NCBI GenBank assembly: GCA_903906315.1
Contig: CAIVJW010000266.1
Span: 1-40,212, forward strand
DNA: 40,212 bases
Source: an uncultured delta proteobacterium
GTDB taxonomy: Bacteria > Myxococcota_A > Polyangia > Polyangiales > Polyangiaceae
Reading direction: 5' to 3'
This document shows positions 4,404-40,212 of this stretch, piece by piece. The translations under genes were made by a program, and so were the position numbers. Position 1 is the first letter of the stretch; every line of letters starts with the position of its first letter. Below the pieces are notes generated by a model that was not told where the DNA came from, searched no databases, and saw nothing but the letters and a program-made list of their open reading frames with translations.

Positions 4404-5285
4404 ATGCGAGTCACGGATAACATGCGATTCCAGGAGGCCACGGCGAACACGTCGCAGGCGGCCGAGCGCGTGTACATGGCAGAGAAGCGCGCGGCCACCT
4501 TGAACCGCGTCGCCAAGCCTTCCGACGACCCCGCGGCCTACGTGTCGATCGCCGCCAAGGACGCGACGCTGTCCCGCCTCGAGGGGCGCAAGGAGACGCT
4601 GTCGCGCGCGCAAGGGGATCTCGAGCTCGCCGAGTCCACGCTCGCGACGGTCGGCGATCTCGTGGCCAAGGCGCGCGAGATCGCCGTCGACATGGCGAGC
4701 GGCGACAAGACCCCGTCGGACCGGGCCGTCGCCGCCAAGCAGGTGACGCAGCTGCGCCAGTCGCTCGTCGCCCTCGCGAACGCCAAAGGGGCGCGCGGTT
4801 ACCTGTTTAGCGGGACGAAGACTGACACGCCGGCGATCGACGAGGTCACGGGCACGTTCCTCGGCAACGATGGCCTGACGAACGTCGAGGTCGCCGACGG
4901 CGTGCTCGCGGCCGCCAACGCGAACGGTGCCACGGCGTTCACGGCGGCCGGCGGCACGGACGTCGTCGCCGAGCTCGACAACTTCGCGAAGGCGCTCGCG
5001 GCGAACGACGTGACCGGGATCCAGACCTCGATCGACACGATGTCCGCGAGCCACGCGCAGGTCGTTTCGGCGCGAGCGGACGTCGGCCTGTCGGCCGATC
5101 GGCTGCGCTCCGCGGCCGACGTGACGACCTCCGCGCTCGGCATCGTGATGTCGTCGCGGGCCTCGATCGCGCAGATCGATCCGACCGTGGCGTATTCGGC
5201 CCTCGCGAACGCGACCGCTATCTTCGATCGCGATCTCGCCATCACGAAGCAGATCCTCTCGATGGCTGCGTCCAACGCCGCCTGA
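4404..5285 (+). CDS. flgL: Flagellar hook-filament junction protein FlgL (HAP3)
   Basis: FlgL is the second junction protein and resembles a shortened flagellin. The 293-aa product starts MRVTDNMRF and has flagellin-type helices: LNRVAKPSDDPAAYVSIAAK (about 34-53), a block ending ARGYLFSGTKTDTPA (about 130-145), and a C-terminal helix with SALANATAIFDRDLAITKQI. The ATG at 4404 lies 2 nt after the flgK stop and is the standard FlgL start. A longer upstream in-frame extension would overlap flgK and is rejected. No csrA or fliW gene follows it, unlike in many other bacteria. Confidence 0.93.
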   Translation: MRVTDNMRFQEATANTSQAAERVYMAEKRAATLNRVAKPSDDPAAYVSIAAKDATLSRLEGRKETLSRAQGDLELAESTLATVGDLVAKAREIAVDMASGDKTPSDRAVAAKQVTQLRQSLVALANAKGARGYLFSGTKTDTPAIDEVTGTFLGNDGLTNVEVADGVLAAANANGATAFTAAGGTDVVAELDNFAKALAANDVTGIQTSIDTMSASHAQVVSARADVGLSADRLRSAADVTTSALGIVMSSRASIAQIDPTVAYSALANATAIFDRDLAITKQILSMAASNAA

Positions 5286-5415
5286 AGAGGTGGCCGTACG
5301 CGCGTCGCGGGCGTCGCGGCGCGAGGGACGTCGGCCCGGGAATACCGCGGCATCTCGCGAACGGCGGCCCACGCGAAGGCGTGCGCATTCGGTTCGCTGC
5401 CCGCCTCTTGCGGCT

Positions 5416-5431
5416 CGGCTCGATGCTTGCT
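5416..5431 (+). promoter_or_regulatory. Candidate sigma-54 (-24/-12) promoter for the glucosaminidase gene
   Basis: The 16-mer CGGCTCGATGCTTGCT has GG (5417-5418) and GC (5429-5430) separated by exactly 10 nt. It has a full TTGCT at -12 and a partial match (GGC-CG) at -24. The predicted transcript start is near 5442, just before a GGAGG (5444-5448) and the GTG start at 5458. The geometry is right, but this is a visual motif match only. Confidence 0.4.
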
Positions 5432-5457
5432 CCGGGGAATCCCGGAGGCTCGACCCC

Positions 5458-6189
5458 GTGTCCATCCAGCCCCTGTCGAACGTAACGATGGCCGCCGCGG
5501 CCGCTGCTCGCGCCACCCGCGCGCCCGCGACCCGCGAGGTCGCAGCCCGGCGCACGCCGCTCTCGGTCGGCCAGATCCGGTCCGCGCTCGCGACCGCCCA
5601 CCTCGAGGCGACCGGGCGGCCCGCTTCTGCCGCGACCCTCGACGTGCTCACCGCCCAGGTCTCGCACGAGACGGCGCGCGGTGACCGCATGTTCAATTAC
5701 AACTTCGGCGGCATCAAAGGCGCGGGCCCGAGCGGCGCGACCGCGCGGTACACGACCCACGAGCGCACCGCTGAGGGCGGCGACATCAAGATCGTCGACG
5801 GCTTCCGTGCGTACGCGACGCCGGCCGAGGGGGCCTCCGACTACCTGGCGTTGCTGAAGCGGCGCTTCGGCGGCGCCATGGCGGCCGCGGAGCACGGCGA
5901 CGTGCAGGGCTTCGCGACGGCGCTCAAGGAGCGCGGATACTACACCGCGCCGGTGGCCGACTACGCCAACGCGCTCCGCGGCCTCGCCCGTGAAAGCCGG
6001 TCCCCCGGCGTCGCGGTTGCGCCTGCGCCCGCGCTTCGCGCGGTCGAGCTCTCGCCGTCGCAGATCTCCATGGGCCCCGCGGGCGCCCCAGAGCTCCCCA
6101 CGACCCTCGAGATCGTGCGGGTCCTCGACGCCGTCGCGGCCATGTCCGCGCGCATTGGAGCCCCTGACGAAGAAGGAAATGCTCGGTAG
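5458..6189 (+). CDS. Glucosaminidase-domain protein, probable flagellar peptidoglycan hydrolase
   Basis: The product (243 aa from GTG 5458) carries a GH73-like fold. VSHETARGDRMFNYNFGGIK at about residues 67-86 corresponds to the family's LESGxG...NNLFGIK block, the Glu of SHETA being the likely catalytic acid. It is followed by FRAYATPAEGASDYLALLKR and a YYTAPVADYANALRGL tail. In enterobacteria this activity is the C-terminal half of FlgJ, which opens the wall for the rod; here it would supply that role as a separate protein. No signal peptide is evident, so it may be exported by the flagellar apparatus (inference). The GTG is chosen because GGAGG sits 9 nt upstream; an in-frame GTG at 5290 would add 56 atypical Arg-rich residues. 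Confidence 0.82.
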   Translation: MSIQPLSNVTMAAAAAARATRAPATREVAARRTPLSVGQIRSALATAHLEATGRPASAATLDVLTAQVSHETARGDRMFNYNFGGIKGAGPSGATARYTTHERTAEGGDIKIVDGFRAYATPAEGASDYLALLKRRFGGAMAAAEHGDVQGFATALKERGYYTAPVADYANALRGLARESRSPGVAVAPAPALRAVELSPSQISMGPAGAPELPTTLEIVRVLDAVAAMSARIGAPDEEGNAR

Positions 6190-6296
6190 GCTCAAGCAGT
6201 TCCGGTGCGGTCCGTCCCAGAGAACAACAAGGCAAACACCGCGCGGCAAGATGAGCGCGGTCGACCGACGCCCCAATCTCTCGGAAGGAGCACACC

Positions 6297-7127
6297 ATGG
6301 CACTCGTCCTGCAGACCAACGTCGCCTCTCTCGAAGCGCAGAAGAACCTCTCCTCGACGCAGCACTCGCTGCAGACCAACTTCCAGCGCCTCTCGAGCGG
6401 CTACCGGATCAACTCGGCCGCGGACGACGCCTCCGGCCTCGCGATCAGCGAGAGCCTCCGGTCGCAGGTCGGTTCGTTCACCGTCGCCGAGCGCAACGCG
6501 AACAACGCGATCAGCATGGCGCAGACGGCGGAAGGTTCGCTCGGTCAGATCGCCTCCACGCTCGGCCGCATGCGCGAGCTGGCCGTCCAGGGCGCCAACG
6601 GCGATCTCGGCTCGACCGACCGCGACTTCCTCCAGACGGAGTTCACCGCGCTGAGCTCGGAAATCGACCGCATCGCCGGCTCGAGCAAGTATAACGGCAA
6701 GGACCTGCTCGGCGGCGCGGCGACCTCGATCGACTTCCAGGTCGGCATCAACAACTCGTCGGCCGACAAGATCGCCGTGAGCTTCGGCGGCGTCTCGCTG
6801 GCCGACCTCAAGCTCGACACGACCGCGGTCTCCGGCTCCGACGCGACGAACTCCCTCGCGGCCATCGACTCGGTCGACGCGGCGCAGACGACGCTGTCGA
6901 CGATGCGCGCCGGCTACGGCGCCGCGATGAACCGCCTGCAGACGACCGTGTCGAACATCCAGACGTTCCGCTCGAACCTGTCGGCCGCCAACAGCCGCAT
7001 CCGCGACGCGGACGTCGCGGAGGAGGCCGCCCAGATGTCGCGGAACCAGGTGCTCCAGCAGGCCGGCGCCGCCGTCCTCGCCCAGGCGAACCAGTCCCCG
7101 CAGGTCGCCCTCAAGCTCCTCGGCTGA
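6297..7127 (+). CDS. fliC: Flagellin FliC
   Basis: This is the filament subunit. The 276-aa product has both conserved terminal regions: the N-terminal D0/D1 with LSSGYRINSAADDASGLAIS (about residues 32-51), AERNANNAISMAQTAEGSL and LGRMRELAVQ (about 89-98), and the C-terminal D1/D0 with RIRDADVAEEAAQMSRNQVL and a final NQSPQVALKLLG. The middle is very short, so the outer D2/D3 domains seen in enterobacterial flagellins are essentially missing. A strong Shine-Dalgarno (GGAAGGAG, about 6282-6289) precedes the ATG. The 107-bp leader shows no convincing sigma-28 motif; two weak GG-N10-GC spacings (6231-6244 and 6245-6258) are not persuasive. Confidence 0.98.
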   Translation: MALVLQTNVASLEAQKNLSSTQHSLQTNFQRLSSGYRINSAADDASGLAISESLRSQVGSFTVAERNANNAISMAQTAEGSLGQIASTLGRMRELAVQGANGDLGSTDRDFLQTEFTALSSEIDRIAGSSKYNGKDLLGGAATSIDFQVGINNSSADKIAVSFGGVSLADLKLDTTAVSGSDATNSLAAIDSVDAAQTTLSTMRAGYGAAMNRLQTTVSNIQTFRSNLSAANSRIRDADVAEEAAQMSRNQVLQQAGAAVLAQANQSPQVALKLLG

Positions 7128-7135
7128 TCCTCGCG

Positions 7136-7182
7136 GGCCGCGCGCCGCCGCACTCGCTGCGGACGGCGCGCTGGCCATTTCT
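7136..7182 (+). terminator. Hairpin terminator after fliC
   Basis: A long imperfect stem begins GGCCGCGCGCCG (7136-7147) and closes with CGGCGCGC and a GGCC ending at 7176. The apical part is CGCA-CTCGC-TGCG, and a short ATTTCT follows. The T-tract is weak, but the stem is long and GC-rich and lies 9 nt after the fliC stop. It probably makes fliC the last gene of its transcript or lowers read-through into fliD. Confidence 0.55.
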
Positions 7183-7224
7183 GGGTGTGCTTCCGATTCC
7201 GCCCTGCTATCCCCGGAGTGAGCC

Positions 7225-8589
7225 ATGGCATCGATCACGTTCGGCGGCCTCGCTTCGGGGATGGACACGGCTGGGATCGTCACGAGCCTGGTCGCCGCGG
7301 AGTCGATCCCGCTCACGCAGATCCAGAACCAGAAGTCGGCCATCGACAGGGCCAAGACCGACGTCTCGAGCTTCATGAGCCGGGTCTCGGACCTCCAGGC
7401 CGCAGCGAAGGCGCTGGCCGATCCCCTGCAGTGGAACGCCACGAAGGCGACGTCGAGCGACCCGGCCGTGGTGGCGACGACGAGCCTCGGCTCGGCGCCG
7501 GGCGTCCACTCGATCGAGGTCACGAGCCTCGCCCGGGAATCGCGGCACCAGAGCCTCCTGCAGAGCTCGAGCACCGACACGATCGACGGTGAGGGTCTCC
7601 TCACGCTCCACATCGGGGACACCTCGGCGGACGTCTCGGTCACGCTGACGGACTCCCTCACCGACATTGCCTCCAAGATCAACTCGAGCGGTCTTCGCGC
7701 GCAGGCGTCCGTCCTCTACGACGGGTCGAAGTACCGCATCGTCGTCCGCGGCCTCGACAGCGGAGAATCCCGCGGGGTGACCTTCGACGAGGGCGGCACG
7801 CTCGCCACGAAGCTCGGCCTGTCGGACCCGGCGAACAAGCTGCAGGCGGCCACCGACGCCAAGCTCAAGGTCGACGGCATCGAGATCACGCGCCCGACGA
7901 ACCAGATCGCCGGCGCGCTGCCGGGCGTGACGCTCGCGCTGACGAAGGAGACGACGTCGGCCGCGCAGCTCACGGTGGCTCCCGATTCCGAGGGGCTCTC
8001 GACGAAGGTCAAGGCCTTCGTCACGGCGTACAACGCCGCGGTCTCGGCTTCGCACCTGATGGCGGGCTACGGCTCGACGAAAGGCAATAACGCCCTCCTC
8101 CAGGGCGACTCGGCATTCCGTTCGACGCTCGACACCATCAGTCGCATCGTCGGGACCTCGGTGTCTGGCACGGGAGGCAAGTCGCTCGGACTGGCAGGCT
8201 TGTCGACTCAGAAGGATGGCAGTCTCACCTTCGACGACGGCAAGCTTCGGGCGCTCGTAGCGAGCGACCCGACGAGCGCCCGCAAGCTCTTCACCACCGA
8301 CCCGAGTGTCGGCGCGACCGGCGCGATGGGAGTGCTGTCGAAGGCGCTCGACACGGTGGCTGGCACGAATGGCACGCTCCAGCACCGCATCGACGGGTAC
8401 GCCGAGCGGACGACGCGCCTCGACCAGTCCGCGGACGCGCTGACCCGCCGGATTGCCGCCTACAAGGAGCAGATCCAGAAGCAGTTCGGCGCGATGGAGA
8501 CGGCCTTCAGCGTCGCCAAGACCCAGACGGCCGCGCTCGCGTCCCTGCTCGGCTCGTCCAGCAGCAACTCGTCGTCGAACAACGGCTGA
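7225..8589 (+). CDS. fliD: Flagellar filament cap protein FliD (HAP2)
   Basis: FliD forms the cap that folds incoming flagellin at the filament tip. The 454-aa product opens with the diagnostic FGGLASGMDTAGIVTSLVAA (residues 6-25) followed by a coiled helix. It has the conserved middle (GVHSIEVTSLAR, then ASKINSSGLRAQASVLYDGS) and ends with a long C-terminal helix (TRLDQSADALTRRIAAYKEQ and FGAMETAFSVAKTQTAALAS). The last residues are a Ser/Asn-rich tail. GGAG lies upstream of the ATG, and fliS follows 24 nt later. Confidence 0.96.
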   Translation: MASITFGGLASGMDTAGIVTSLVAAESIPLTQIQNQKSAIDRAKTDVSSFMSRVSDLQAAAKALADPLQWNATKATSSDPAVVATTSLGSAPGVHSIEVTSLARESRHQSLLQSSSTDTIDGEGLLTLHIGDTSADVSVTLTDSLTDIASKINSSGLRAQASVLYDGSKYRIVVRGLDSGESRGVTFDEGGTLATKLGLSDPANKLQAATDAKLKVDGIEITRPTNQIAGALPGVTLALTKETTSAAQLTVAPDSEGLSTKVKAFVTAYNAAVSASHLMAGYGSTKGNNALLQGDSAFRSTLDTISRIVGTSVSGTGGKSLGLAGLSTQKDGSLTFDDGKLRALVASDPTSARKLFTTDPSVGATGAMGVLSKALDTVAGTNGTLQHRIDGYAERTTRLDQSADALTRRIAAYKEQIQKQFGAMETAFSVAKTQTAALASLLGSSSSNSSSNNG

Positions 8590-8613
8590 CACTAGGACCT
8601 CTCGGAGGACACC

Positions 8614-9048
8614 ATGGTACCCCGCAGCTTGGCCACGCAACGATACCGTTCGACGCAGGTGACGACCTGCTCCCCGGGGCAGCTGCTCGTCCTCCTCTAC
8701 GACGGCCTCTTCCGCTTTCTCTCCGAGGCCAAGGGCGCGATCGAGGCTGGGGAGCGCGCGCGCACCGGGGAGCGACTCGACCGAGCGTACGCCATCCTCC
8801 AGGAGCTCGCGGGCGCGCTGCAGCCCTCGGCCTCGCCGACGCTGTGCGAAAACTTGCACGCGATTTATCTTTTCTGTATGGGCCGGATCGTCGAAGCGAA
8901 CCTTCACCGGGACGCAGCGGCCGTCGACGACGTCGTGCGTGTCCTCACCCCGCTCCGCGAGGCGTGGCGCGTCGCTGCCGCCGAGGCAGACAAGGCGGAG
9001 GCCCAGCGGACGCTCGCGAAGGTCGCGGGCAGCCGAGGTATGCGCTGA
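8614..9048 (+). CDS. fliS: Flagellar export chaperone FliS
   Basis: FliS binds flagellin in the cytoplasm and prevents early polymerisation. The 144-aa product shows the family signature CSPGQLLVLLYDGLFRFLSE (about residues 19-38), a helical bundle with ARTGERLDRAYAILQELAGA, and a C-terminal LTPLREAWRVAA helix. Length is normal for FliS. The ATG at 8614 has GGAGGA upstream. Standard context directly after fliD supports the call. A small GACCC-TCTC-GGGTC hairpin at 9069-9082 may end this transcript but lacks a T-tract. Confidence 0.93.
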   Translation: MVPRSLATQRYRSTQVTTCSPGQLLVLLYDGLFRFLSEAKGAIEAGERARTGERLDRAYAILQELAGALQPSASPTLCENLHAIYLFCMGRIVEANLHRDAAAVDDVVRVLTPLREAWRVAAAEADKAEAQRTLAKVAGSRGMR

Positions 9049-9283: not shown

Positions 9284-10336
9284 ATGACGCACCTTCCTGA
9301 AGACTTCGACGCCTCGGTCGGACCCGGCTCGGAAACGCGCGAGCGGCGCCCGACCCTGCGTCCGACGAGCCGCGGGAAGATCATCGGGTCGAGCGGCGTG
9401 CTTCGCGCGGTGTTGGACACGGTCGATCGCGTCGCGCGCTCCGCGTGCACGGTCCTCGTCACCGGCGAGAGCGGCACGGGCAAGGAGCTCATCGTCTCGG
9501 CGTTGCACGACGCCAGCCCGCGCCACGCCGGCCCGCTCGTGACCGTCAACTGCGGCGCGATCCCCGAGCAGCTGCTCGAGAGCGAGCTATTCGGTCACGC
9601 TCGAGGCGCGTTCACCGGCGCCGTCGCCGCCCGGCAGGGGCGGGTGGCCGCGGCCGAGGGCGGCACCTTGTTTCTCGACGAGATTGGTGAGTTGCCGCTA
9701 GCCCTCCAGGTGAAGCTCCTGCGCCTGCTGCAGCAGAGGGAGTACTCGCCGGTCGGCGATAGCCGCACGCTTCGCTGCGACATCCGCGTGGTTGCTGCCA
9801 CGAACCGGGACCTCGAGGTCGAGGTGACCGAGGGGCGCTTCCGCGAGGACCTCTACTACCGCCTGAACGTGATTCACGTGCACCTCCCGCCCCTTCGCGA
9901 GCGTGTCGGTGACGTCGAGCTCCTCGCGATGCACTTCTTTCGCGTTTGCGCGGACCGCTGCGGCCGCGACGACCTCACCGGGGTGTCGCCCGAGGCGCTC
10001 GGCGCCATCAAGGCGCACGAGTGGCCGGGCAACGTGCGCGCGCTCGAGAACGCGGTGGAGCACGCCGTGCTCCTCGCCGTGGGGCCCGAGCTGACCGTGA
10101 ACGACCTGCCGTCGCGCGTGCGCGGTGTCGAAGGGCGCGAGGACGGTCGGAAGCTGCTGCGTGAGCTGCCGCAGGCGGGCATCGACCTCCGAGCGACCGT
10201 CGAGGAGTACGAGAGCCGTCTCATCAAGCAGGCCCTCGACCGCACGGGCTGGAACAAGAACCGCGCGGCGCAGCTGCTCGGCTTGAACCGGACGACGCTC
10301 GTCGAGATGATCAAGCGCAAGCGCATCGCGAGCTGA
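9284..10336 (+). CDS. Sigma-54-dependent transcriptional activator (FleQ/FlrA-like, no receiver domain)
   Basis: This bacterial enhancer-binding protein would activate sigma-54 promoters, most likely of flagellar genes given its place after fliS. From the ATG at 9284 the 350-aa product has a short unstructured N-terminus (about 30 residues, with no REC, GAF or PAS domain). The AAA+ domain follows, with Walker A GESGTGKE (61-68), the sigma-54-contacting GAFTGA loop (108-113), Walker B TLFLDE (128-133) and an arginine-rich sensor region. The C-terminus is a Fis-type helix-turn-helix (about 305-350, ending [20 protein letters not shown]). With no receiver it is probably controlled by its own level or by a partner protein. 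The GTG at 9281 is an alternative start. Confidence 0.93.
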
Positions 10337-16651: not shown

Positions 16652-17905
16652 ATGAGCAAGGTCAGCATCGTCGGCGCCTACAACACGAAGTTCGGCTCGC
16701 TCGTCGACGTGAAGGACATGATCTCCTTCAAGAAGAAGACGGACCGGCAGTCCTTCTACGATCTCCTCATCGAGGCCGGCCGCGGCGCGATCGCCGACGC
16801 GGGGCTCGACGCGAAGGACATCGACGCGGTCTGGATCGGCTCCTGTTCGCCGTCGCGCTTCGTGAACCAGGAGCACGTGGCGCCGATCGCGGTGGGCATC
16901 GACCCGTCGCTGCGCTTCAAGCCGATGACCCGCACCGAGTGCGCGTGCGCCTCGTCGTCGGTGGCCATTTACGACGCGACGTACGCGATCGAGGCCGGTC
17001 GATTCGACAACGTGCTCGTCGTCGGGGTCGAGAAGATGAACCTCGTCGACACGTCGTCGATGACGCAGACGCTCGCGACCTGCAGCTACTGGCCCGAGGA
17101 GGGGGGCAAGGGCTACACGTTCCCGGCTCTCTTCGCCGAGCTCGCGAAGGCGTACCTCGCGCGCTACGGGCTGTCGGAGGCCGAGTGGCGCAACCAGGCG
17201 GCGCATGTGTCGGCGCTCTCGTACCGGAACGCCGCGAAGAACCCGCTCGCGCACGTGCAGAACGGCCCCGCGACGGCCGAGGCGATCCTCGCGTTGCCGG
17301 ACGCGGGCAGGGGATCGAACATGATCATCGCCGCGCCGCTGCGGCTGCACGACTGCTCGCTGGTCACGGACGGCGCCGCGGCCGTCGTGCTCACCAGCAC
17401 CGCGAACGCGAAGGCGAACCGCAAGAAGGTGGTCGAGATCGCGGGCATCGGCCACGCGGAGGACTACCTCCCGCTGTCGAAGCGCGAGAACAAGCACGTG
17501 CTCGAGGCCGGCAAGGTCGCGGTCGCCAAGGCGTACAAGGAGGCCGGCATCGGCCCGCGCGACGTCGACCTGGCGGAGGTGCACGACTGCTTCAGCATCG
17601 CGCAGATCATGACGACCGAGGCGCTCGGCCTCTCGGACGACGGGCGCGCGGGCGCGGAGTACGTCGACGGGCGCTTCACCGCCGACGACGACCGCGTGTG
17701 CGTCAACCTGTCGGGCGGCCTCAAGGCGAAGGGGCACCCGGTGGGGGCGACGGGCGCGTCGATGCACGCGCTGGTCTACAAGCAGCTCATGGAGGAGCCG
17801 ATCGGCCTCGCGCCGACGAAGAAGACGCCCAGGGTCGGCGTGACGTTCAACGTCGGCGGCTCCGGCGTCAGCAACTGCGTGACCGTGCTGCGGCGCGCGC
17901 AGTAG
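16652..17905 (+). CDS. Thiolase family protein (SCP-x / acetyl-CoA acetyltransferase-like)
   Basis: The 417-aa product is a thiolase-fold protein of the SCP-x-like branch. It opens with SKVSIVGAYNTKFG. The nucleophile Cys lies in TRTECACASSSVA (about residues 91-103). The His of EVHDCFSIAQ (near 308) and the C-terminal KAKGHPVGATG (about 354-364) are the other active-site elements, and NVGGSGVSNCVTVL closes the domain. Expected chemistry is cleavage or formation of a 3-ketoacyl-CoA, but SCP-x-like members can be non-canonical. Together with the SDR it could perform the last two steps of a beta-oxidation-type cycle. The ATG at 16652 has GGGAGAG upstream. Confidence 0.9.
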   Translation: MSKVSIVGAYNTKFGSLVDVKDMISFKKKTDRQSFYDLLIEAGRGAIADAGLDAKDIDAVWIGSCSPSRFVNQEHVAPIAVGIDPSLRFKPMTRTECACASSSVAIYDATYAIEAGRFDNVLVVGVEKMNLVDTSSMTQTLATCSYWPEEGGKGYTFPALFAELAKAYLARYGLSEAEWRNQAAHVSALSYRNAAKNPLAHVQNGPATAEAILALPDAGRGSNMIIAAPLRLHDCSLVTDGAAAVVLTSTANAKANRKKVVEIAGIGHAEDYLPLSKRENKHVLEAGKVAVAKAYKEAGIGPRDVDLAEVHDCFSIAQIMTTEALGLSDDGRAGAEYVDGRFTADDDRVCVNLSGGLKAKGHPVGATGASMHALVYKQLMEEPIGLAPTKKTPRVGVTFNVGGSGVSNCVTVLRRAQ

Positions 17906-17993: not shown

Positions 17994-18069
17994 TGGTGGG
18001 TCGAAAGGGACTCGAACCCTTGACCAACGGGTTAAAAGCCCGCAGCTCTACCGACTGAGCTATCGACCC
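17994..18069 (-). tRNA. tRNA-Lys (anticodon UUU)
   Basis: Read on the minus strand, a complete cloverleaf is present. The acceptor stem is GGGTCGA/TCGACCC and the D arm carries AGCTCAGTCGGTAGAGC. The anticodon arm is GCGGG-CTTTTAA-CCCGT with anticodon TTT. The T arm is AGGG-TTCGAGT-CCCTT-like, with discriminator A and an encoded 3' CCA (17994-17996). All invariant positions seen by eye are normal. It lies antisense to and between the thiolase and S1-domain genes. Confidence 0.97.
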
Positions 18070-32155: not shown

Positions 32156-33868
32156 TTGAGCCGCGAGCCGCGCCCGTTGCCCCTCCGGGGCTCTCCGCAT
32201 CTCGACAAGGTCACGAGGCGCCTCGGGGCTGCCGCTGCGATCGCAGCGGCGATGGCCTCGTTCGCGTCCCCGGCCGCCGCCCTCGAGCCCTGGTCCGACG
32301 CGGATCCACCCGCGCCGCCCGAGCGGTTCGCGCTCGGCAACTTCGGGTTCCGCGGCGCCGCCGAGTACCGCGCGCAGGCGGTCTACGTGAACCCGATCGC
32401 GCTCTCCAGCGAGACCGGGCGCCGGCTGACCTTCGTCGAGCAGCGACTGCGCCTCGACGGCGGCGTCGACTTTCAGGACAAGGTTCGGCTCACGACCTCG
32501 CTCGACGTCCTCGACGGGCTGCTCTGGGGCGACAACGGGACGTTCGGCGGCACGCCCGCGCCGAACGCCGGCACCAACGTCGGCGCGAAGAGCCCGAGCT
32601 TCGCGAAGGCGTGCATCGGCTACCGAGGCGGCGACCCGCTCAAGCCCGAGGCGTACGGCTACACGCTCTGCGACGCGACGGCCGTGACCGTGCGCAAGCT
32701 GTACGCGGACGCCGCGCTCCCGTTCGGCCTGCTTCGCGTCGGTCGCCAGCCGGCGAACGCGGGCACGGGCGTGCAATCGGCCGACGCCGACGGGCGCCCG
32801 AACCGGTTCGGCATCAGCCGCGGCGGCAACATGGTCGACCGCGTCCTCTTCGCGACCAAGCCGCTCGAAGCCTTCAAGCCGGCCGCCGAGCGCAGCCGGT
32901 CCGAGAGCGAGGGGATGTTCGTCGGCGTCTCGTACGACCGCCTCGTCGGCGACGACCCGCACCTCTTCGCCGACGACGTGCACCAGATCGCCGTCGGCGT
33001 GCGCTACCTCCAGCCCAAGTGGGCCGCGGGCCGCGATCTCTGGCTCTCGGGCTACTACGTGCATCGCTGGGACGGGCAGTTCGCGACGCGCCTCAACAGC
33101 CTCGGCGCGCGCGGGTATTCGCGCTTCGGGCCGAAGGGCCGGCTCGCGCTCGGCTTCGATATCGCGGCCAACCTCGGGACGACGCGCGAGATCTCCGAGG
33201 CGTACAAGGTCATCTCCAACGACCCGGCGGTCGATCAGCGCGTGCGCCAGATCGGCGCTCGTGCGGCGGTCCGCTACGACACGAAGTACCTGACCCCGTA
33301 CCTCGAGATCGACTACGCGTCCGGCAACTCCGACCCGCAGGCGCGCGCCCCGCTCACGCAGTTCGTGTTCGCCGAGGACACGAACGTCGGCCTCCTGCTC
33401 TTCAAGCACGTGCTCGCGTTTCAGACCGCGCGATCGTCGGCCGCCGCGCTCGAGACGATGCGGCGCCTCGGGGCGCCGAGCTACCCGGCGGAGGCCATCG
33501 CCACCCGCGGCGCGTTCACGAACGCCTTTGCCCTGTTTCCGCAGCTCGACGTGCGCCCTCACAAGAACGTGCTCGTGCGCGCGGGCGTCCTCTTCGCGTG
33601 GGCGCCCGCCCCGGTGAACGACCCGGTCGCGTCGCTCAAGCGGCGCGACGGCGCGAGCATTCAGGACGACCTCGTCAACTTCAACGGCGGCAAGCCGGGC
33701 ACCTACTACGGCACCGAGCTCGACGGGCGCGTGCAGTACCGGTTCCTCGAGCACTTCGCCTTCGATCTCGAGGCCGCGGTCCTCTTCCCCGGGGACGCGC
33801 TGCGGGACGTCGACGGCAACGCCGTGCGCAGCGTGCTCGTCCAGGGCCGCACCACCTTCTTCTTCTGA
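32156..33868 (+). CDS. Outer-membrane beta-barrel (porin-like) protein
   Basis: The 570-aa product has a signal peptide (RRLGAAAAIAAAMASFASPA with a cleavage near Ala-Ala-Ala/Leu-Glu-Pro) and then alternating polar/hydrophobic strands throughout (for example RLTFVEQRLRLDGGVDF, LWLSGYYVHRWDGQF, TPYLEIDYASGNSD, VRAGVLFAWAP). It ends in Thr-Phe-Phe-Phe, and a C-terminal aromatic is the usual signal for the barrel-assembly machinery. The alternation and the length suit a 16-20-stranded barrel of the alginate-export/porin kind, but the specific family and cargo are not recognised. The start is uncertain; TTG 32156 is the best in-frame choice. It overlaps the following lipoprotein gene by one base (TGATG). 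Confidence 0.8.
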   Translation: MSREPRPLPLRGSPHLDKVTRRLGAAAAIAAAMASFASPAAALEPWSDADPPAPPERFALGNFGFRGAAEYRAQAVYVNPIALSSETGRRLTFVEQRLRLDGGVDFQDKVRLTTSLDVLDGLLWGDNGTFGGTPAPNAGTNVGAKSPSFAKACIGYRGGDPLKPEAYGYTLCDATAVTVRKLYADAALPFGLLRVGRQPANAGTGVQSADADGRPNRFGISRGGNMVDRVLFATKPLEAFKPAAERSRSESEGMFVGVSYDRLVGDDPHLFADDVHQIAVGVRYLQPKWAAGRDLWLSGYYVHRWDGQFATRLNSLGARGYSRFGPKGRLALGFDIAANLGTTREISEAYKVISNDPAVDQRVRQIGARAAVRYDTKYLTPYLEIDYASGNSDPQARAPLTQFVFAEDTNVGLLLFKHVLAFQTARSSAAALETMRRLGAPSYPAEAIATRGAFTNAFALFPQLDVRPHKNVLVRAGVLFAWAPAPVNDPVASLKRRDGASIQDDLVNFNGGKPGTYYGTELDGRVQYRFLEHFAFDLEAAVLFPGDALRDVDGNAVRSVLVQGRTTFFF

Positions 33869-34956
33869 TGGAGCCGCCCGTGAGCCACGCGACTCGACGA
33901 ATCCTCCCGCCCCTCGGCGCGGTCGCTCTCGCCCTCGCCGCGCTTGGCTGCGAGACCTACGAGGGGCCGCCCCGCATCGTCATCGACGGCCTGTCGAACG
34001 GCCTGCTCTCGGATGCGAAGGCGCCCATCGTCATCGGCTTCTCGAAGCCGATCGATCCGGCGACGCTGCGGTTCAAGCTCGCGCGCAACGTCGTCGACAG
34101 CGAGGGTAACGTCAACGACACCGACGATGACGAGATCACGTCGATGGACGTGCTGCTCGAGCACGCGCCCGGGCAGGATGACGTCGGCGGCGACGTCGAG
34201 ATCGCCGCCGACGCGCAGTCGGTGACGATCTTGCCGAGCGCCCCGCTCCAGGTTGGGCCGAAGCTCACGCTGATCGTGGACTCGGGGCTCTCCGACACGA
34301 CGGGGCACGCGACGGCCGTGCGCCGCCGCCTCGTCTTCGGGTACCGATTCGACCTGAAGTGCGACGCGCCCGTGAAGGGCTTCGACCCGGCGGGGACGTT
34401 CTTCCTGGTCGAGGTGCGCAAGCCGATCCCGACGCAGATCAAGCTCTGGGCCCTCATGGAGGTCGACGCGGCGACCGGCCGCACGGTCGCGCAGTTCACG
34501 GCCGGCCGTCGCAACCAGACCGTCGGCCGATGCCCGATGGCGTGCGCCGACACGGACGTGTGCCGCCTCCTGCCGCAGCCGGCGTGCGTCCCGCCCTCGG
34601 AGAAGATGGGCTCGGTCGACGAGTACCCGGACTACGTGCCGAACGTCTCGCCGCCGAGCGGCTACAGCTTCGCCACCACGGGCTGCGTGGTCGAGCAGGG
34701 GGACGGCAGCTTCGCGTTCGCCAACGCGCCGGTCGACGTGGAGGTGATGAGCCCGCACGTCACCCTCCGCAACACGAAGCTCACCGTGTCGTTCACCAAC
34801 GCGGGCGGCGTGCTGCGCGGGCAGGGGTCGCTCGTCGCCGATGCGGTCCTGCTCGGGACGGCCCCGAGCGGCGAGGGGGAGGGGGACCTCACCGCGCGCG
34901 AGCTCCCGGCCGCGGACGTGCCGGCCGGCCTGCCGAGGCCCCCGGGCAAGCCCTGA
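33868..34956 (+). CDS. Lipoprotein with Ig-like (Big_5-type) domain, partner of the barrel
   Basis: The 362-aa product has a signal peptide with lipobox LALGC-type sequence (Cys28). Residues about 35-155 resemble a bacterial Ig-like domain of the SbsA/Big_5 kind: PRIVIDGLSNGLLSDAKAPI, then IVIGFSKPIDPATLRFKL, and SVTILPSAPLQVGPKLTLIV, and SGLSDTTGHA. The remainder has a Cys cluster (GRCPMACADTDVC, CVPPSEK) and a beta-rich end. Translation is coupled to the barrel gene (stop and start share the A in TGATG), suggesting an outer-membrane complex. The function is unknown. Confidence 0.78.
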   Translation: MEPPVSHATRRILPPLGAVALALAALGCETYEGPPRIVIDGLSNGLLSDAKAPIVIGFSKPIDPATLRFKLARNVVDSEGNVNDTDDDEITSMDVLLEHAPGQDDVGGDVEIAADAQSVTILPSAPLQVGPKLTLIVDSGLSDTTGHATAVRRRLVFGYRFDLKCDAPVKGFDPAGTFFLVEVRKPIPTQIKLWALMEVDAATGRTVAQFTAGRRNQTVGRCPMACADTDVCRLLPQPACVPPSEKMGSVDEYPDYVPNVSPPSGYSFATTGCVVEQGDGSFAFANAPVDVEVMSPHVTLRNTKLTVSFTNAGGVLRGQGSLVADAVLLGTAPSGEGEGDLTARELPAADVPAGLPRPPGKP

Positions 34957-35386
34957 CCGCGGGGCCATTGCACGGCTGATCGGCGTGAAGCCCCGTTTGG
35001 TGCAGAGGTGGAATCGGGGGCCCGCCATCTGCTCGAAATCGAACGCAATTCGCCTGGCACGACCGCTGCACTAAGGGACGACGCGCCGCGACGCGAGACC
35101 TACCCCCCCCGGGTGTCCGTCGTGGCGCTTTTCGTTTCGAACGCGCGGACGCCTATCGACGCTGGAGCTTCAAGAGCTCGCGTTGCGCGTCGGGGCGGCT
35201 GGTCCCTCACCGCGTAGCGCTGGCAGTGCGCCGCTGCGAGCGGAGGTCGCCGGGGTGGGGCGCGCCGGGCCATCCCGATTCCGCCCGCGACGGTGCCGGA
35301 GTGCATCCATGATGGCGCTTGTTTCAGTGTTGAGCTGGCTGCGTGGAATGACCTGCTCAAGTATATGAATTGACGCCCATTGCGTC

Positions 35387-35402
35387 TGGCATGCAGGGTG
35401 CT
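35387..35402 (+). promoter_or_regulatory. Sigma-54-like (-24/-12) promoter 14 bp before a terminator hairpin
   Basis: TGGCATGCAGGGTGCT matches the -24/-12 consensus at about 10 of 12 defined positions (TGGCA-G and -TGCT), with GG (35388-35389) and GC (35400-35401) spaced by exactly 10 nt. Predicted transcription starts near 35413, so the RNA would consist almost wholly of the terminator hairpin. Confidence 0.4.
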
Positions 35403-35415
35403 TAGGCAGCTGTCG

Positions 35416-35471
35416 GCGCCGCGACGCCGACCGTTCTCCCCCCCAACGGTTCGTCGCGGCGCTTTTTCTTT
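35416..35471 (+). terminator. Very strong intrinsic terminator
   Basis: GCGCCGCGACG (35416-35426) pairs with CGTCGCGGCGC (35452-35462), and ACCGTT (35430-35435) with AACGGT (35445-35450), giving 17 bp broken by one small internal loop. The apical loop is C-rich, and TTTTTCTTT follows directly. It reads on the + strand. It may end the barrel-lipoprotein transcript 460 bp upstream, or a small RNA started at the motif above. A competing hairpin, GTCGGCG-CCGCGA-CGCCGAC (35412-35431), uses part of the left arm. Confidence 0.85.
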
Positions 35472-35542
35472 CCATCGCTGCCTCCCGCCTCCCTCCGGCG
35501 CGAGCGAGCGACGCGAGGCCGACCGCGCGGGGGGCGTGGTGG

Positions 35543-35560
35543 CGACGCGCAGTCGCGTCG
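35543..35560 (-). terminator. Hairpin downstream of the giant lipoprotein gene
   Basis: CGACGCG-CAGT-CGCGTCG is a perfect 7-bp-arm hairpin 65 bp past the minus-strand stop. There is no T-tract in either direction, so termination would need Rho or another aid. Confidence 0.3.
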
Positions 35561-35624
35561 GATCGAGGCGGCTCGCTCCTCGACGTGCTCGCGGGGCGCG
35601 ACCCGGCCCCTCGGGTGGCGCGAG

Positions 35625-38600
35625 TCAGCGCCGGTCGGTCGAGGCGACGAGGGCGCCGAGGGCCTCGCGGGCCACGCGATCGCGGTCCTCGCCCTTCGTC
35701 GCGGGGGCGCGCAGTGTCCGGAGCGCGTCGCAGAGCGGGGCGCGAGGGCCCGGTGGGAAGGTCTCGCAGACGAGCTCGTAGCGCGCGCGCTCGGCGTCGG
35801 GCGGGATGGGCTTCCCCGTGAGCACGAGCGCGGCGTGGTCGATGACGAGCGCCGCGGTGACGGCGGCCGGGTCGAGCTGGGTCCAGCGGTCCACGAAGCG
35901 CGGCTGCGAGGCGAGCCTGGCCAGCAGATCGAAGCGGCGCGCGCGGAGCGAGAGGTCGCTCACGAAGAGGACGAGGCGAAAATTGCGCGACGCATCGGGT
36001 AGCGAGCGCGTCTCGAGGTCCATGGCGAGCACGTCGTCGTCGAAGCGCGCGTCCGGGCTCGCGGCCGCGCAGTTCACCGCGACGGCGAGCAGGTCGGCGC
36101 GCACGGACGGGCCGAGCAGGGGCGATCGACCGAGGCTCCGCGCGACGTTCGACAGGGTCGGGCTGCAATGCCCTTCGCGGCGCTGGCGGGTCAGCAGCAC
36201 GGCGGCCTCGTAGGCGCGGCCGTCGCCGTGCAGGGCCTCGACCGCATGCGTGAACGCGTCCGGGTCGTAGCTGCCCTTGTCGGCGCCCCCGAGGAACGCA
36301 TCGAGCGCGCGGATCGGGCCGCAACCGGGCTCCGCGCCCGTGCCTTGTGCGAGGCGCGGGAGCTTGCTCACGGCGTCCGCGACGCGCAGCGACAGCGCGA
36401 GGGGGTAGCTCTCGCACGCCGGCTTCTCGAAGGCGGATCGGTCGACCTTGGCCTCCGTGCACGCGAGCGGATCGGCGAGCACGCGCAGCGCCCGCTGGGC
36501 CCGGCGCGCGGTCGCGGTGGCGCCGGGCAGGCCCGCGAGACCGACGGGCAGCGGCTCGAGGAGGCGGCCGACCGCCGCGTCGTCGGCATCCGCGGGGATC
36601 GCGCTGCGCACGATCGTGAAGAGATCGCCCGCGAGGAACGGCAGGCCGGCGTCGGCCGCGAGCTGGGCGTCGAGGGCGAGGAGCGCGCGCGCGCCCGAGG
36701 CCGCGGCGCTCGGGCTCTCGGCTGCGGCGCGGCGGTCGCCGAGGCGCACGCCGCCGACGATGGCCGCGATCGCGCGGTGGGCGGCGCGGGTGGCGTGGTC
36801 GCGGTCGCCGTCGAGGAAGTGGTACGCGGCCGTGAGCGCCGAGGCGTAGACGTAGTAGCGCGCCGCGTCCGCCGCGGCCTGCGGGCCGCTCGGCGGCTCG
36901 AACGTGGTGGTGAGCGCGCCCTCCGGGGTGCCCGCCGATCGGACGCCGAGGCCGAGCTGGAAGGAGCTCGCGCCCTCGACGAGGCCGGTGCCGAGCGAGA
37001 CGCCGAGCGAGAGCGCGAGCACCTTCGTCGCGGTGCGCTCCTCGTAGCGGTACGTGACGAGCGGCAAGGCGAGGCCCTTGTCCTCCATGCGCGCGAGCAG
37101 ATCGTCGAGCGACCGGCGGGCCTCGACGCGCTTGCCGGCGCCGTAATCGCGGATCGCTTCCATGACGGCGACCGGGGTGTCGACGTCGGCGACCGCGCAG
37201 GCGGCGGCCTGGGCCGCCTTCACGCCCGGCGCGTACGAGGCCGGGTCGGGCGCCGCGCCGCCGCGCACCCGCTGGGTGTCCGCGGCGAACCGCAGCGCCC
37301 ACTCGATGCGGCTCTTCTGGTCGCGCGCGAGATCGATCGAGGCCTGCGCAGGCTCGGTGTGCGCGATCGAGGAGAGGACCAGCGTGCCGAGCAGGCAGAG
37401 GTCGGCCTGGTCGGGCTGGCCCCGCTCGCGAAAGGCCTTCCCGTAGGCGAGCAGCGCGCGGAGGGCGTCGTCGCCGCTCGCGCCTTCACCGGGGAGCTTG
37501 ATCGCCGCGAGCGCGTCGACGAGCGCGACGCCCGCGGATCCGCCGCCGTCTTTGCGGAACCAGCCGAGGAGGCCGGCGACGACGCGTCGGGCCTTGCCGC
37601 CGCTCGATGCGACGAACGCCTCGGGGCGCTCCGCGGCCACGTACTCGCGCGCGAGGGCGTAGGCTCCCGCCACCGCGTCGGCGGCGCCTCGGTCGTCCCA
37701 CTCGCGCAGCGCGTCGGCGGCGAAGCGCTCGGCGTCCGCGGTCGTGATCGTCAGCACGGGCCTCGGGCCGGGGCGCGCCGCGACGTCCATCGCGTCCGAG
37801 ATCACCGCGACGAGCAGGCGCGCGCGCCGCACCCACGCGCCGTCGCCGGACTTGAAGCGCGGGTGCCCGAGGATGCGCCGGCGGACGTCGCCGAGCTTCG
37901 CGAACGATCGCCGCACGCGCGGGTCCATCGCGGGCGGCCCCTTGGCGTCGCAGACGGGCCCCTTCGCGGCCCGCGGATCGCGCACGAAAGCCTTGCCCTT
38001 CGCGTCCGTCACCGGGGTCGGGGCGGCGGCCGGGGTCGTGTCGACGAGCGTCGCCACCGCCGCGGCGACGACGCCGTCGACCAGGTCGGTCACGTCGTCG
38101 AGCACGTTGTTCGGCGCCTCGCCAGGATCGCCGAGCCCCGCGATTGCGCGCCGTAGCGCCTCGCGCGCCTGCCGTCGCTCGGCCGGCAGCTCCTCGGGCT
38201 TGCGGCGCGCGGGGTCGAGCTCGCCGCTCGACGAGAGCGCGGCGTAGCGGGCGGCGCTCGCCGCCAGCGCGCCGAGGGCGGGGCGGGGCAGGGCGCGGTC
38301 GTCCTCGAGCGCGCGCGCGACGTGGAGCGCGGAGGCGCCGAGCCCCGGCCGGTCCTTCGTGAAGGCGCGCAGCACGCCGTCCGCCGCGAACAGGCCGGCC
38401 ACGGCCCAGCCCGTGCGCTGCGAGAGATCGCCCCGGAGCCGCGCGGCGAACGCGCTCTGCACCGCGAGCAGCTGCTCGGTGCGGATCGCCGGCGGGTACG
38501 ACATGCCGGCGAACGCCCCGGCCGCGAGACCTTCGAGCACGCCCGTCGGGTCCGGCGCGCGCGCGACCTTGTCGGCTACGCTCGCCTGGAGCAGCTTCAC

Positions 38601-40010
38601 GAGCTCCGATCGCAGCCGGTCGTCCTCCAGCACGCCGGGCGAGTAGGCGAGGGGGACCGCGGCCATCGCGCGGAAGCGATCGGGCTGCGCCTTCTCGAGC
38701 GCGGCGAGCGCAGCGAGGTGCCTCGATCCGAGCTCCGTCGCGCGTCGGTACGACGACGTGCCGCCCGCGCGCAGGCCGTGGATCTCGCCGCGCTCGGCCA
38801 GCAGGGAAGGCAGGTGCGACCACGCCGTGCCCGCGCGCTCGACGGCCGCGGTCGCGGCCTCGTGCCGCGGTAGCCACGCGCCGATCGGGAGCCGACCGCG
38901 CGCCTCGTCGGCAGGCTCGCGGGCCAGCGCGCCGGGCAGGCGGCCGAGGAGCACGAGGTCGCGCGGTCCCGTGATCGGCGGCGGCGCGTGGGCGCTGCAC
39001 GCGGCGTCCTCGAAGAGTGCGCCGAGGACGGCCTGCCTGCCGGCAGGGAGCCGGGCAGCGATCGTCTTCATGCGGCCGGCCCACGCGGCCCGCTCGTCCT
39101 TGGCCGACCGCACGCGCAGGAGCGCGCCGTAGGGCGTCTCGGCGTCCGTCGGCGCGGGGAGCGGCGTCGCGTTGCCGGGGTCGAACGCCGGCTTGCTCGC
39201 GCTCTCGAGCGAGATCCCCGCGGACGCGAGCACGTCGAGCGCGTAGCGCGCCCGGATCGTGGGCTCGCTCGCGACCGGACGGCTCGTCAGGAGCGCCTCG
39301 AGCGTGTCCGCCTCGCGCGCAGCCTCCACGTAGCGGAACGCGGACGCGTGGCCGAGGGCGCGCCGCACCGACGCCTCGAGGGCCACGTCGGCCGCGAGTC
39401 GGTCGATCGCGCCGTCGTCGCGCACGGCCGATCCGACCCCGGCGACGAAGGGCGCGAGCGGGTCCGCCGCGAAGATCTCGTCGACGCGCACGGCCGCGCT
39501 GGCGGGCCTCACGCGGATCACGAGGGGCACGCCCGCGGCGGTGGCCATCGCCGCCACGAGGTCCTCGCTCGCGATCGAGGCCGGCTCGTCGAGCGCGGGC
39601 ATGTCGAGGAACGCGACCGCCTCGCCGGCGCCCTTCGCGGCTGCGCGCGCCCGCTCCGCGGCTGCGCCCTCGCCGAGGACCAGCGCCACGTTCGGCCGCG
39701 CCGTGAGCGCGTCACGCAGGCGAGCCCAGCCGCCGGCGCCGTCGCGGGCCGCGACGCCCTTCACGTAGGCCGACAGGAGATCGCGGTCGGCGGGGTCGAG
39801 ATCGGTCCGGTCGAATCGTCCCGCCGTGAAGGCGGCGGCGAGCTTGACCTCGCACCCGGCGAGCTCGGCCGTCGCGCAGGCGCCGGCGGTGCGCATCGGG
39901 GTCGCAGGCGCTGCCGGCGCGCCGCAGCCGGCGCCGATCGCGCCGAGGACCAGGAGGAGCGCGGAGAGCGAACGCGCGCGGGTCGATCCGCGCGGAGAAC
40001 GCCGTACCAT
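35625..40010 (-). CDS. Giant (about 1,460 aa) lipoprotein of unknown function
   Basis: No domain recognised. From the ATG at 40010 the product has an Arg-rich n-region, a hydrophobic stretch and GAGC (Cys29), so it is probably a lipoprotein, though Gly at -3 is atypical. The body is almost entirely alpha-helical and Ala/Leu/Arg-rich (for example RDALTARPNVALVLGEGAA, and ASALTAAYHFLDGDRDHATR), resembling a long TPR- or HEAT-like solenoid without clear repeat consensus. Cysteines are spread along its length (ACATAELAGC near the N-terminus, PLACTEAKVD and KPACESYPL near residue 1200), suggesting disulfides and a periplasmic or surface location. Codon use is even throughout, with no frameshift. 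An ATG at 40028 is an alternative start. Confidence 0.8.
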   Translation of the reverse strand: MVRRSPRGSTRARSLSALLLVLGAIGAGCGAPAAPATPMRTAGACATAELAGCEVKLAAAFTAGRFDRTDLDPADRDLLSAYVKGVAARDGAGGWARLRDALTARPNVALVLGEGAAAERARAAAKGAGEAVAFLDMPALDEPASIASEDLVAAMATAAGVPLVIRVRPASAAVRVDEIFAADPLAPFVAGVGSAVRDDGAIDRLAADVALEASVRRALGHASAFRYVEAAREADTLEALLTSRPVASEPTIRARYALDVLASAGISLESASKPAFDPGNATPLPAPTDAETPYGALLRVRSAKDERAAWAGRMKTIAARLPAGRQAVLGALFEDAACSAHAPPPITGPRDLVLLGRLPGALAREPADEARGRLPIGAWLPRHEAATAAVERAGTAWSHLPSLLAERGEIHGLRAGGTSSYRRATELGSRHLAALAALEKAQPDRFRAMAAVPLAYSPGVLEDDRLRSELVKLLQASVADKVARAPDPTGVLEGLAAGAFAGMSYPPAIRTEQLLAVQSAFAARLRGDLSQRTGWAVAGLFAADGVLRAFTKDRPGLGASALHVARALEDDRALPRPALGALAASAARYAALSSSGELDPARRKPEELPAERRQAREALRRAIAGLGDPGEAPNNVLDDVTDLVDGVVAAAVATLVDTTPAAAPTPVTDAKGKAFVRDPRAAKGPVCDAKGPPAMDPRVRRSFAKLGDVRRRILGHPRFKSGDGAWVRRARLLVAVISDAMDVAARPGPRPVLTITTADAERFAADALREWDDRGAADAVAGAYALAREYVAAERPEAFVASSGGKARRVVAGLLGWFRKDGGGSAGVALVDALAAIKLPGEGASGDDALRALLAYGKAFRERGQPDQADLCLLGTLVLSSIAHTEPAQASIDLARDQKSRIEWALRFAADTQRVRGGAAPDPASYAPGVKAAQAAACAVADVDTPVAVMEAIRDYGAGKRVEARRSLDDLLARMEDKGLALPLVTYRYEERTATKVLALSLGVSLGTGLVEGASSFQLGLGVRSAGTPEGALTTTFEPPSGPQAAADAARYYVYASALTAAYHFLDGDRDHATRAAHRAIAAIVGGVRLGDRRAAAESPSAAASGARALLALDAQLAADAGLPFLAGDLFTIVRSAIPADADDAAVGRLLEPLPVGLAGLPGATATARRAQRALRVLADPLACTEAKVDRSAFEKPACESYPLALSLRVADAVSKLPRLAQGTGAEPGCGPIRALDAFLGGADKGSYDPDAFTHAVEALHGDGRAYEAAVLLTRQRREGHCSPTLSNVARSLGRSPLLGPSVRADLLAVAVNCAAASPDARFDDDVLAMDLETRSLPDASRNFRLVLFVSDLSLRARRFDLLARLASQPRFVDRWTQLDPAAVTAALVIDHAALVLTGKPIPPDAERARYELVCETFPPGPRAPLCDALRTLRAPATKGEDRDRVAREALGALVASTDRR

Positions 40011-40110
40011 CGGGATCGCGGGTGCCATGCAGCGGTCACGATAGCCGCGCTGCCTGCATCCTGGGAATCGCCCGCTCCACCCAGGTTGCCGCCGGGGGAG
40101 CGCAGTCGGA

Positions 40111-40212
40111 TCAGCCGCCGTCGCCAGCGTCGGGCGCACCGGCTCCGCCGCTGCCGCCTGCGCCGCCGTTGCCCATGCCGCCGCTGCCGCCTGCGCCGCA
40201 GCTGCCCATGCC
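40111..40212 (-). CDS. C-terminal end of a glycine-rich protein (partial, cut by window end)
   Basis: On the minus strand the last 33 codons before the TGA at 40111-40113 encode Gly/Ala/Ser-rich sequence with Met and a single Cys (GMGSCGAGGSGG at the visible start), ending in Ala-Pro-Asp-Ala-Gly-Asp-Gly-Gly. Only this tail is inside the window. It resembles the Gly-rich spacers common in Myxococcota surface proteins but sits at the C-terminus. It is 100 bp upstream of the giant lipoprotein gene on the same strand and may be in one operon with it. Confidence 0.5.
   Translation of the reverse strand, partial: GMGSCGAGGSGGMGNGGAGGSGGAGAPDAGDGG

Follow-up and report, generated by a model that had tools for sequence, protein, structure and literature searches.

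Paired sigma-54-type promoters and C-loop hairpins in a Polyangiaceae genome suggest a family of small hairpin RNAs

We analysed a window of 40,212 nucleotides (contig CAIVJW010000266.1, positions 1 to 40,212, of GenBank assembly GCA_903906315.1) from an uncultured delta proteobacterium of the family Polyangiaceae. A preliminary description of this DNA had pointed to a sigma-54-like promoter that would fire straight into a terminator hairpin and might yield a tiny RNA. The observation is real, and it extends further than described: the site holds two such modules, W1 and W2, 332 bp apart, with W1 lying upstream and having the better promoter match. In each, a -24/-12 element is followed 13 nt later by a hairpin that has a C7 or C8 loop and ends in a U tail, and the RNA predicted from each is about 55 nt long. 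The proteins encoded around the modules (32281-40139; barrel-like, lipoprotein-like and 1504 aa) had no Pfam match at E ≤ 0.001. As had been noted, no gene follows on the same strand, the next large open reading frame being on the minus strand, and the hairpin is not a leader attenuator. Elsewhere the window carries a tRNA gene (17997-18069, minus strand; Rfam RF00005, 75.7 bits). The features that matter here are as follows.

9380-9880, plus strand: sigma-54 activator domain (Pfam PF00158, E 7e-70) in a 421-aa open frame
34968-34973, plus strand: TTGCAC, candidate activator half-site upstream of W1, of the enriched TTGCR/YGCAA type
35035-35039, plus strand: GAAAT, phased upstream element of W1, lying 20 nt 5' of the T of -24
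35055-35070, plus strand: W1 -24/-12 element TGGCACGACCGCTGCA, one mismatch
35081-35132, plus strand: predicted W1 RNA, about 52 nt, its start placed from -12 and its end from the T run
35083-35128, plus strand: W1 hairpin, fold -31.3 kcal/mol, loop C8 at 35103-35110, followed by T4 at 35129-35132
35359-35371, plus strand: AA (35359-35360) and GAATT (35367-35371), phased upstream elements of W2, an AA-N6-8-GAWW motif
35387-35402, plus strand: W2 -24/-12 element TGGCATGCAGGGTGCT, two mismatches from TGGCACGNNNNTTGCW
35413-35468, plus strand: predicted W2 RNA, about 56 nt, its ends placed in the same way
35415-35463, plus strand: W2 hairpin, 19 pairs (12 + 7) with a 2-nt 5' bulge, fold -32.6 kcal/mol
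35436-35444, plus strand: W2 loop CTCCCCCCC (CTC7)
35463-35467, plus strand: W2 T run

The preliminary description had called the W2 hairpin the strongest terminator of the window. In a scan for hairpins followed by at least four T's it indeed ranked first (-32.3 kcal/mol), W1 came second (-31.3 kcal/mol) and the next candidate reached -25.3 kcal/mol. Both have the make-up of an intrinsic terminator, in which a T run (T5 in W2, T4 in W1) comes after a stable G+C stem. A simple terminator scan of the window did not list the W2 hairpin, presumably owing to the bulge and the 9-nt loop. Folding z-scores were -6.1 for the W2 region (35412-35475) and -4.8 for the W1 region (35068-35140). The start proposed near 35413 agrees with the +1 that we predict by taking C35401 as the -12 position. 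The sigma-54-like element of W2 lies where it had been placed, but taken alone it is no better than chance: the window contains five sites within two mismatches of the -24/-12 consensus, 4.03 were expected, and 40 of 100 shuffled sequences reached five. We therefore rejected the W2 promoter match as stand-alone evidence.

We searched for the modules in the 8.79-Mb assembly of the same organism and in related genomes. A pattern joining the promoter to the stem ends matched twice in the assembly, at W1 and W2, and its reversed form matched nowhere. Covariance model R2 recovered W1 (35054-35138, E 3.5e-14) and W2 (35386-35472, E 8.3e-18) in a whole-genome search and, at E ≤ 1, found only two further modules; with its 455 contigs, the assembly may conceal more copies. 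These two form a second tandem pair with the same fold, 297 bp apart. Searched at the DNA level, 108 genomes of the family yielded two clear matches beyond the window, in G045 (E 5e-13) and G101 (E 3e-8), the others being weak; G045 has two modules 353 bp apart and G101 has three within about 6 kb. The largest group that we describe, reached through one of the weak matches, is an array of nine modules in G006, in which each module has a -24/-12-like element, a hairpin with a C8 to C11 loop and another C-loop hairpin with T's after it, and the most similar copies are spaced by 383-390 bp and the others by 442-572 bp.

L018 6999-7381 (contig C178 of the window's own genome, G000): second tandem pair, adjoining a carboxyl transferase gene
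L015 (G006:C1:9569000-9588000), about 5120-8670, minus strand: nine-module array of double-hairpin modules

With model R2, matches at E ≤ 1e-3 were present in 96 of 106 family genomes, with up to 15 copies per genome; G013 has a single match, a single-loop module. Among 80 genomes from outside the family, the same threshold was reached in 12/24 of the same order, 2/17 of the same class and 2/39 of the same phylum. Thirteen comparison genomes gave matches at E ≤ 1e-3 at three places in two genomes, the best at 1.1e-5, and distant matches weaker than about 1e-6 are therefore doubtful. At a best E ≤ 1e-6, the family count was 89 of 106 and the count for the other genomes 8 of 80. A possible module in Myxococcus sp. 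RHSTA-1-4 (L133 1578, minus strand; E 1.1e-5) places its hairpin shortly 5' of an ATG and may be a leader version. A broader pattern was not specific, with matches in 94 of 108 genomes, overlaps counted repeatedly and many matches of the reversed control, and we therefore used it solely as a source of candidates; it led us to the tandem pair on C178, and another of its matches, on contig C94 of the window's genome, showed no such hairpin.

Are promoter and hairpin linked? When 12 modules were first aligned, the GGC of -24, the TGC of -12 and the spacing between them proved invariant. A scripted collection then gave 88 modules, 10 of them Pxr (see below), from which two chance-like ones were dropped before later counts. 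The script required GG, a C-run of at least six and TGC; the A, C and G after TGGC, which it did not require, were present in 77, 70 and 67 of the 88 modules. An earlier spacing control (40 at spacing 8, 0-2 at six others) was biased because the loci had been picked on spacing 8, and it is superseded by two other tests. One was a search of the 108 family genomes with the hairpin core only, blind to everything upstream. It returned 22 C-loop hairpins in 13 genomes, and the reversed pattern matched at one place. Fifteen of the 22 carry a strict [CT]GGC-N8-TGC 26-29 nt 5' of the core and five a one-base variant at the same spot, while one has no such element and one is interrupted by N, so that the GG-N10-GC spacing is conserved in loci chosen regardless of the promoter. 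Among the other spacings from 3 to 15, only 3 and 14 occur in this set, and these share the same TGC. The second test covered 797 kb of G000 and G101 not chosen for modules, in which a loose form of the architecture (C6 or longer) was found 0-3 times per spacing over nine spacings, and twice at the sigma-54 spacing. The preliminary description had proposed -24/-12 conservation as a check; in relatives the element is kept together with the hairpin, and not the terminator alone.

In 40 modules aligned to covariance model R1, all 16 stem pairs change on both sides, double changes fill 125 cells versus 39.4 after shuffling, and 84.2% of cells are paired versus 33-54% when the alignment is slid, figures that are favoured by an alignment fitted to the structure. 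The loop is nearly pure C while the stems vary with compensation, and the C-run, 6-11 long and most often 8, was itself a search criterion (at least six). Going outward from the loop, the stem is first interrupted on the 5' side only in 40 of 63 nonredundant modules, on the 3' side only in 10 and on both sides in 12; one module has no interruption. Of 86 modules, 53 have a clear T-rich tail just after their first hairpin; the other 33 lack one, and hence not all modules end at the first hairpin.

Two further details of the preliminary description fared differently in this collection. It had noted a small inverted repeat abutting the -24 element; GACGC..GCGTC is present, and such a repeat occurs in 2 of the 86 modules, W2 included. 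It had also suggested that a competing 7-bp hairpin (35412-35431) could let the RNA switch between two folds. The hairpin exists (-11.8 kcal/mol alone, -12.6 kcal/mol in the RNA), but the alternative is 20 kcal/mol weaker than the main fold (-32.6 kcal/mol) and a 5'-arm hairpin was found in 2/86 modules, again with W2 included, and we rejected the switch on these grounds. What stands of the proposed tiny RNA is, by comparison with relatives, a promoter placed to fire into a short, U-tailed hairpin RNA. W2 proved to have a tandem partner and to be among four copies in the genome, and what is conserved is the C-tract loop. That loop, W1 (35055-35132) and the phased upstream elements were absent from the earlier account.

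GAAAT in W1 and GAATT in W2 both lie at -20 from the T of -24, and AA precedes the element in W2 only. Across 69 nonredundant non-Pxr modules, GAWW occurs at -21 in 16 and at -20 in 13, and AA-N6-8-GAWW occurs 26 times at -29/-28, compared with at most 3 at any one position in 500 shuffles. Upstream of the same modules, TTGCR/YGCAA words number 125 (19-38 in 20 shuffles) and YTGAAA-type words 41 (0-9 when shuffled); all these controls were mononucleotide shuffles. The genome has one RpoN match and 41 matches to the sigma-54 activator domain. The closest one within the window, at 9380-9880, lies some 25 kb away from the modules and is a candidate regulator by proximity only. None of 20 flanking proteins tested in the window and in relatives contains an activator domain; no theme was common to these neighbours, and 8 of the 20 had no Pfam match at all.

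The closest likeness to a described RNA is with Pxr of Myxococcus, a gatekeeper of fruiting-body formation that is said to have arisen recently in the Cystobacterineae (PMC5568312, PMC11928866). Pxr has a predicted sigma-54 promoter and three stem-loops (PMC5568312, PMC5684412), and tandem pxr paralogs are described in Cystobacter (PMC5568312). By means of a published primer, we found 13 pxr loci among 15 stretches of sequence; the promoter is in view in 12 of them, each with TGGCACG-N5-TGC at a distance of 44 nt 5' of the UUC7 stretch. A contig titled Comamonas sp. KCTC 72670 (L039 1421) carries a Myxococcus-like pxr locus, promoter included, and is perhaps a misnamed record. The window modules share with Pxr the -24/-12 promoter type and the occurrence in tandem. 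The first Pxr hairpin has a 5' bulge (1 nt in our fold of M. xanthus pxr), a 3-bp inner stem and a UUC7 loop, and W2 likewise has a 5' bulge, of 2 nt, and a CTC7 loop. All five nonredundant pxr loci also have AA-N6-8-GAWW upstream, at -40, roughly a helical turn beyond the -29/-28 of the modules. In contrast, Pxr is 108 nt long with three stem-loops, whereas each window RNA is predicted to have one hairpin and a U tail, and Pxr adjoins pxrR, a sigma-54 response regulator, whereas we found no activator gene beside the window modules.

The Pxr family model separates the two groups. RF01812 identified both pxr loci on which we ran Rfam and passed its gathering score in both Myxococcus/Hyalangium genomes searched, but in none of 13 genomes of the window's order, three of which had sub-threshold matches (E 0.09-0.64). 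The window itself gave no RF01812 match, and neither the window modules nor eight other module loci matched any Rfam family above its gathering score. Conversely, model R1 gave weak matches to 12 pxr loci, one at E 2.8e-4 and the remaining 11 at 0.028-0.098, and R2 gave E 0.008 for the Hyalangium pxr and 0.16 for that of M. xanthus. We rejected identity with Pxr, as the RF01812 cut-off was not reached; the window modules look like the first arm of Pxr, and the weak R1 and R2 matches do not imply shared ancestry. In the titles and abstract openings of the open-licence literature, no account of such RNAs outside the Pxr clade was present among the matches listed. The Qrr small RNAs of Vibrio are likewise several sigma-54-dependent siblings under enhancer-binding proteins, and they differ from the window modules in sequence, structure and loop.

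We consider it probable that the modules are a new family of sigma-54-activated, stand-alone, often tandem hairpin RNAs that act in trans, with the C-tract loop as working surface. An enhancer-binding protein at the sites 5' of -24 would let sigma-54 RNA polymerase open the -24/-12 promoter, and the polymerase would make about 55 nt and stop at the hairpin's own U tail. The product would be a stable bulged stem that presents a C7 or C8 tract in its loop, and this tract may bind in trans, either to G-rich stretches in a limited number of mRNAs or to an RNA-binding protein. With several copies, each under its own promoter, dose and output would rise. The DNA itself shows the promoter element, the hairpin with its loop, the covariation, the copies in tandem and their conservation; we infer transcription, the activator, action in trans and the target. 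In favour of this reading, changing the fifth base of the SL1 loop of Pxr, which has the same promoter type and loop, from C to A abolished function while accumulation was kept (PMC5684412). Against it count the 33 modules that lack a clear T-rich tail, the absence of an activator domain from the 20 flanking proteins and the W2 promoter match, which is weak when taken alone. Avoidance of G runs gave no clue to the targets: the window's genome has 45 runs of at least seven G/C in 397 kb (49-52 simulated) and G101 has 40 in 400 kb (54-68 simulated).

CsrB/RsmZ and CrcZ are RNAs that act as protein decoys, and the repeated C-tract loops might similarly titrate an RNA-binding protein instead of pairing with mRNA. 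Rho prefers C, and Rho or a cold-shock-type protein would be an example of a C-preferring partner. We regard the decoy as a serious rival, though as the less likely reading. A loop that stays nearly pure C on a stem that varies with compensation suits it, and so does the titration-like design in which a second C-loop hairpin lies within 150 nt in 32 of 86 modules (by a loose criterion of five C) and arrays reach nine modules. Runs of five G, moreover, are rare in predicted ribosome-binding sites (0 of 85 genes in G000, 2 of 87 in G101). The lone single-loop module of G013 speaks against titration, and the authors of the Pxr work consider that Pxr may pair with targets or bind a chaperone (PMC5684412).

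The loop could instead block ribosome-binding sites broadly, in the manner of generic anti-Shine-Dalgarno RNAs such as cuckoo/CcsR, which we think unlikely. In CcsR RNAs a C-rich motif sits in the loop. The family (RF02791) resembles the window modules in having several copies in one locus and a C-rich motif in its name, some relatives carry CCCTCCCCCC in the loop, and the CcsR1 model finds a resemblance at 35382-35465, which at 14 bits (E 1.4) is far below the gathering score of 65.3. The four CcsR RNAs of one locus have a CCUCCUCCC motif and an RpoHI/RpoHII promoter and are cut from a protein-sRNA transcript (PMC10253847), whereas the window loops are C7 or C8 and lack a CCTCC core. Near predicted starts, GAGG is enriched (19/85 in G000 and 21/87 in G101, against 5-7 in upstream control windows) and GGAGG is enriched in G101 (11 versus 3 and 0) but not in G000 (2 versus 2 and 1). 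Runs of five G are not enriched there, on heuristic starts and a small sample, and for this reason a generic anti-Shine-Dalgarno role is disfavoured.

We think it very unlikely that the hairpins are ordinary intrinsic terminators serving the barrel/lipoprotein operon upstream and that the -24/-12 match arose by chance. In favour of this, the W1 hairpin, with its T run, begins about 130 nt 3' of the last stop codon before it, the W2 promoter match is at chance level by itself, and G101 has one terminator-like C-loop hairpin without a proper promoter. The latter (L181, near 17612-17650, minus strand) follows soon after a TGA and has the loop UCCCCCCC; the sole -24/-12-like match upstream of it, AGGTCGAGCTCGTGC, fits poorly and lies at a greater distance than usual. 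Against chance stand the conserved -24/-12 element at fixed spacing in relatives and the tandem arrangement of two such hairpins. The nearest upstream gene is divergent and within 200 nt in 7 of 20 loci (heuristic gene picks; two of the seven are orthologous); those modules have nothing to terminate and thus cannot be operon ends. C-loops are not a general feature of terminators here: the 797 kb of G000 and G101 yielded 182 hairpin-plus-T candidates, of which one has such a loop. Least probable of all is a mobile or repetitive, REP-like element spreading by copying, which would suit the multiple copies, the tandem arrays and the period of about 385 bp in part of the G006 array, but not the compensatory divergence of the stems, the promoter spacing and upstream phasing kept across copies, or the mere four copies in the window's own genome.

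Overall, our analysis favours trans-acting hairpin RNAs, and the module family suggests a wider sigma-54 RNA circuit in myxobacteria. Tentatively, Pxr might be one offshoot of an old and far wider network of sigma-54-fired C-loop hairpin RNAs, of which the window's family would run up to fifteen in parallel, with a common kind of activator site and a common loop code, gating starvation or developmental decisions. The direct targets of Pxr are described as not known (PMC5568312, PMC11928866). A multi-copy family with the Pxr promoter type and loop, present in most genomes of another myxobacterial family, would offer a comparative set for finding the partner of the C-loop, and the rule of promoter plus loop can be tested in any sequenced strain.
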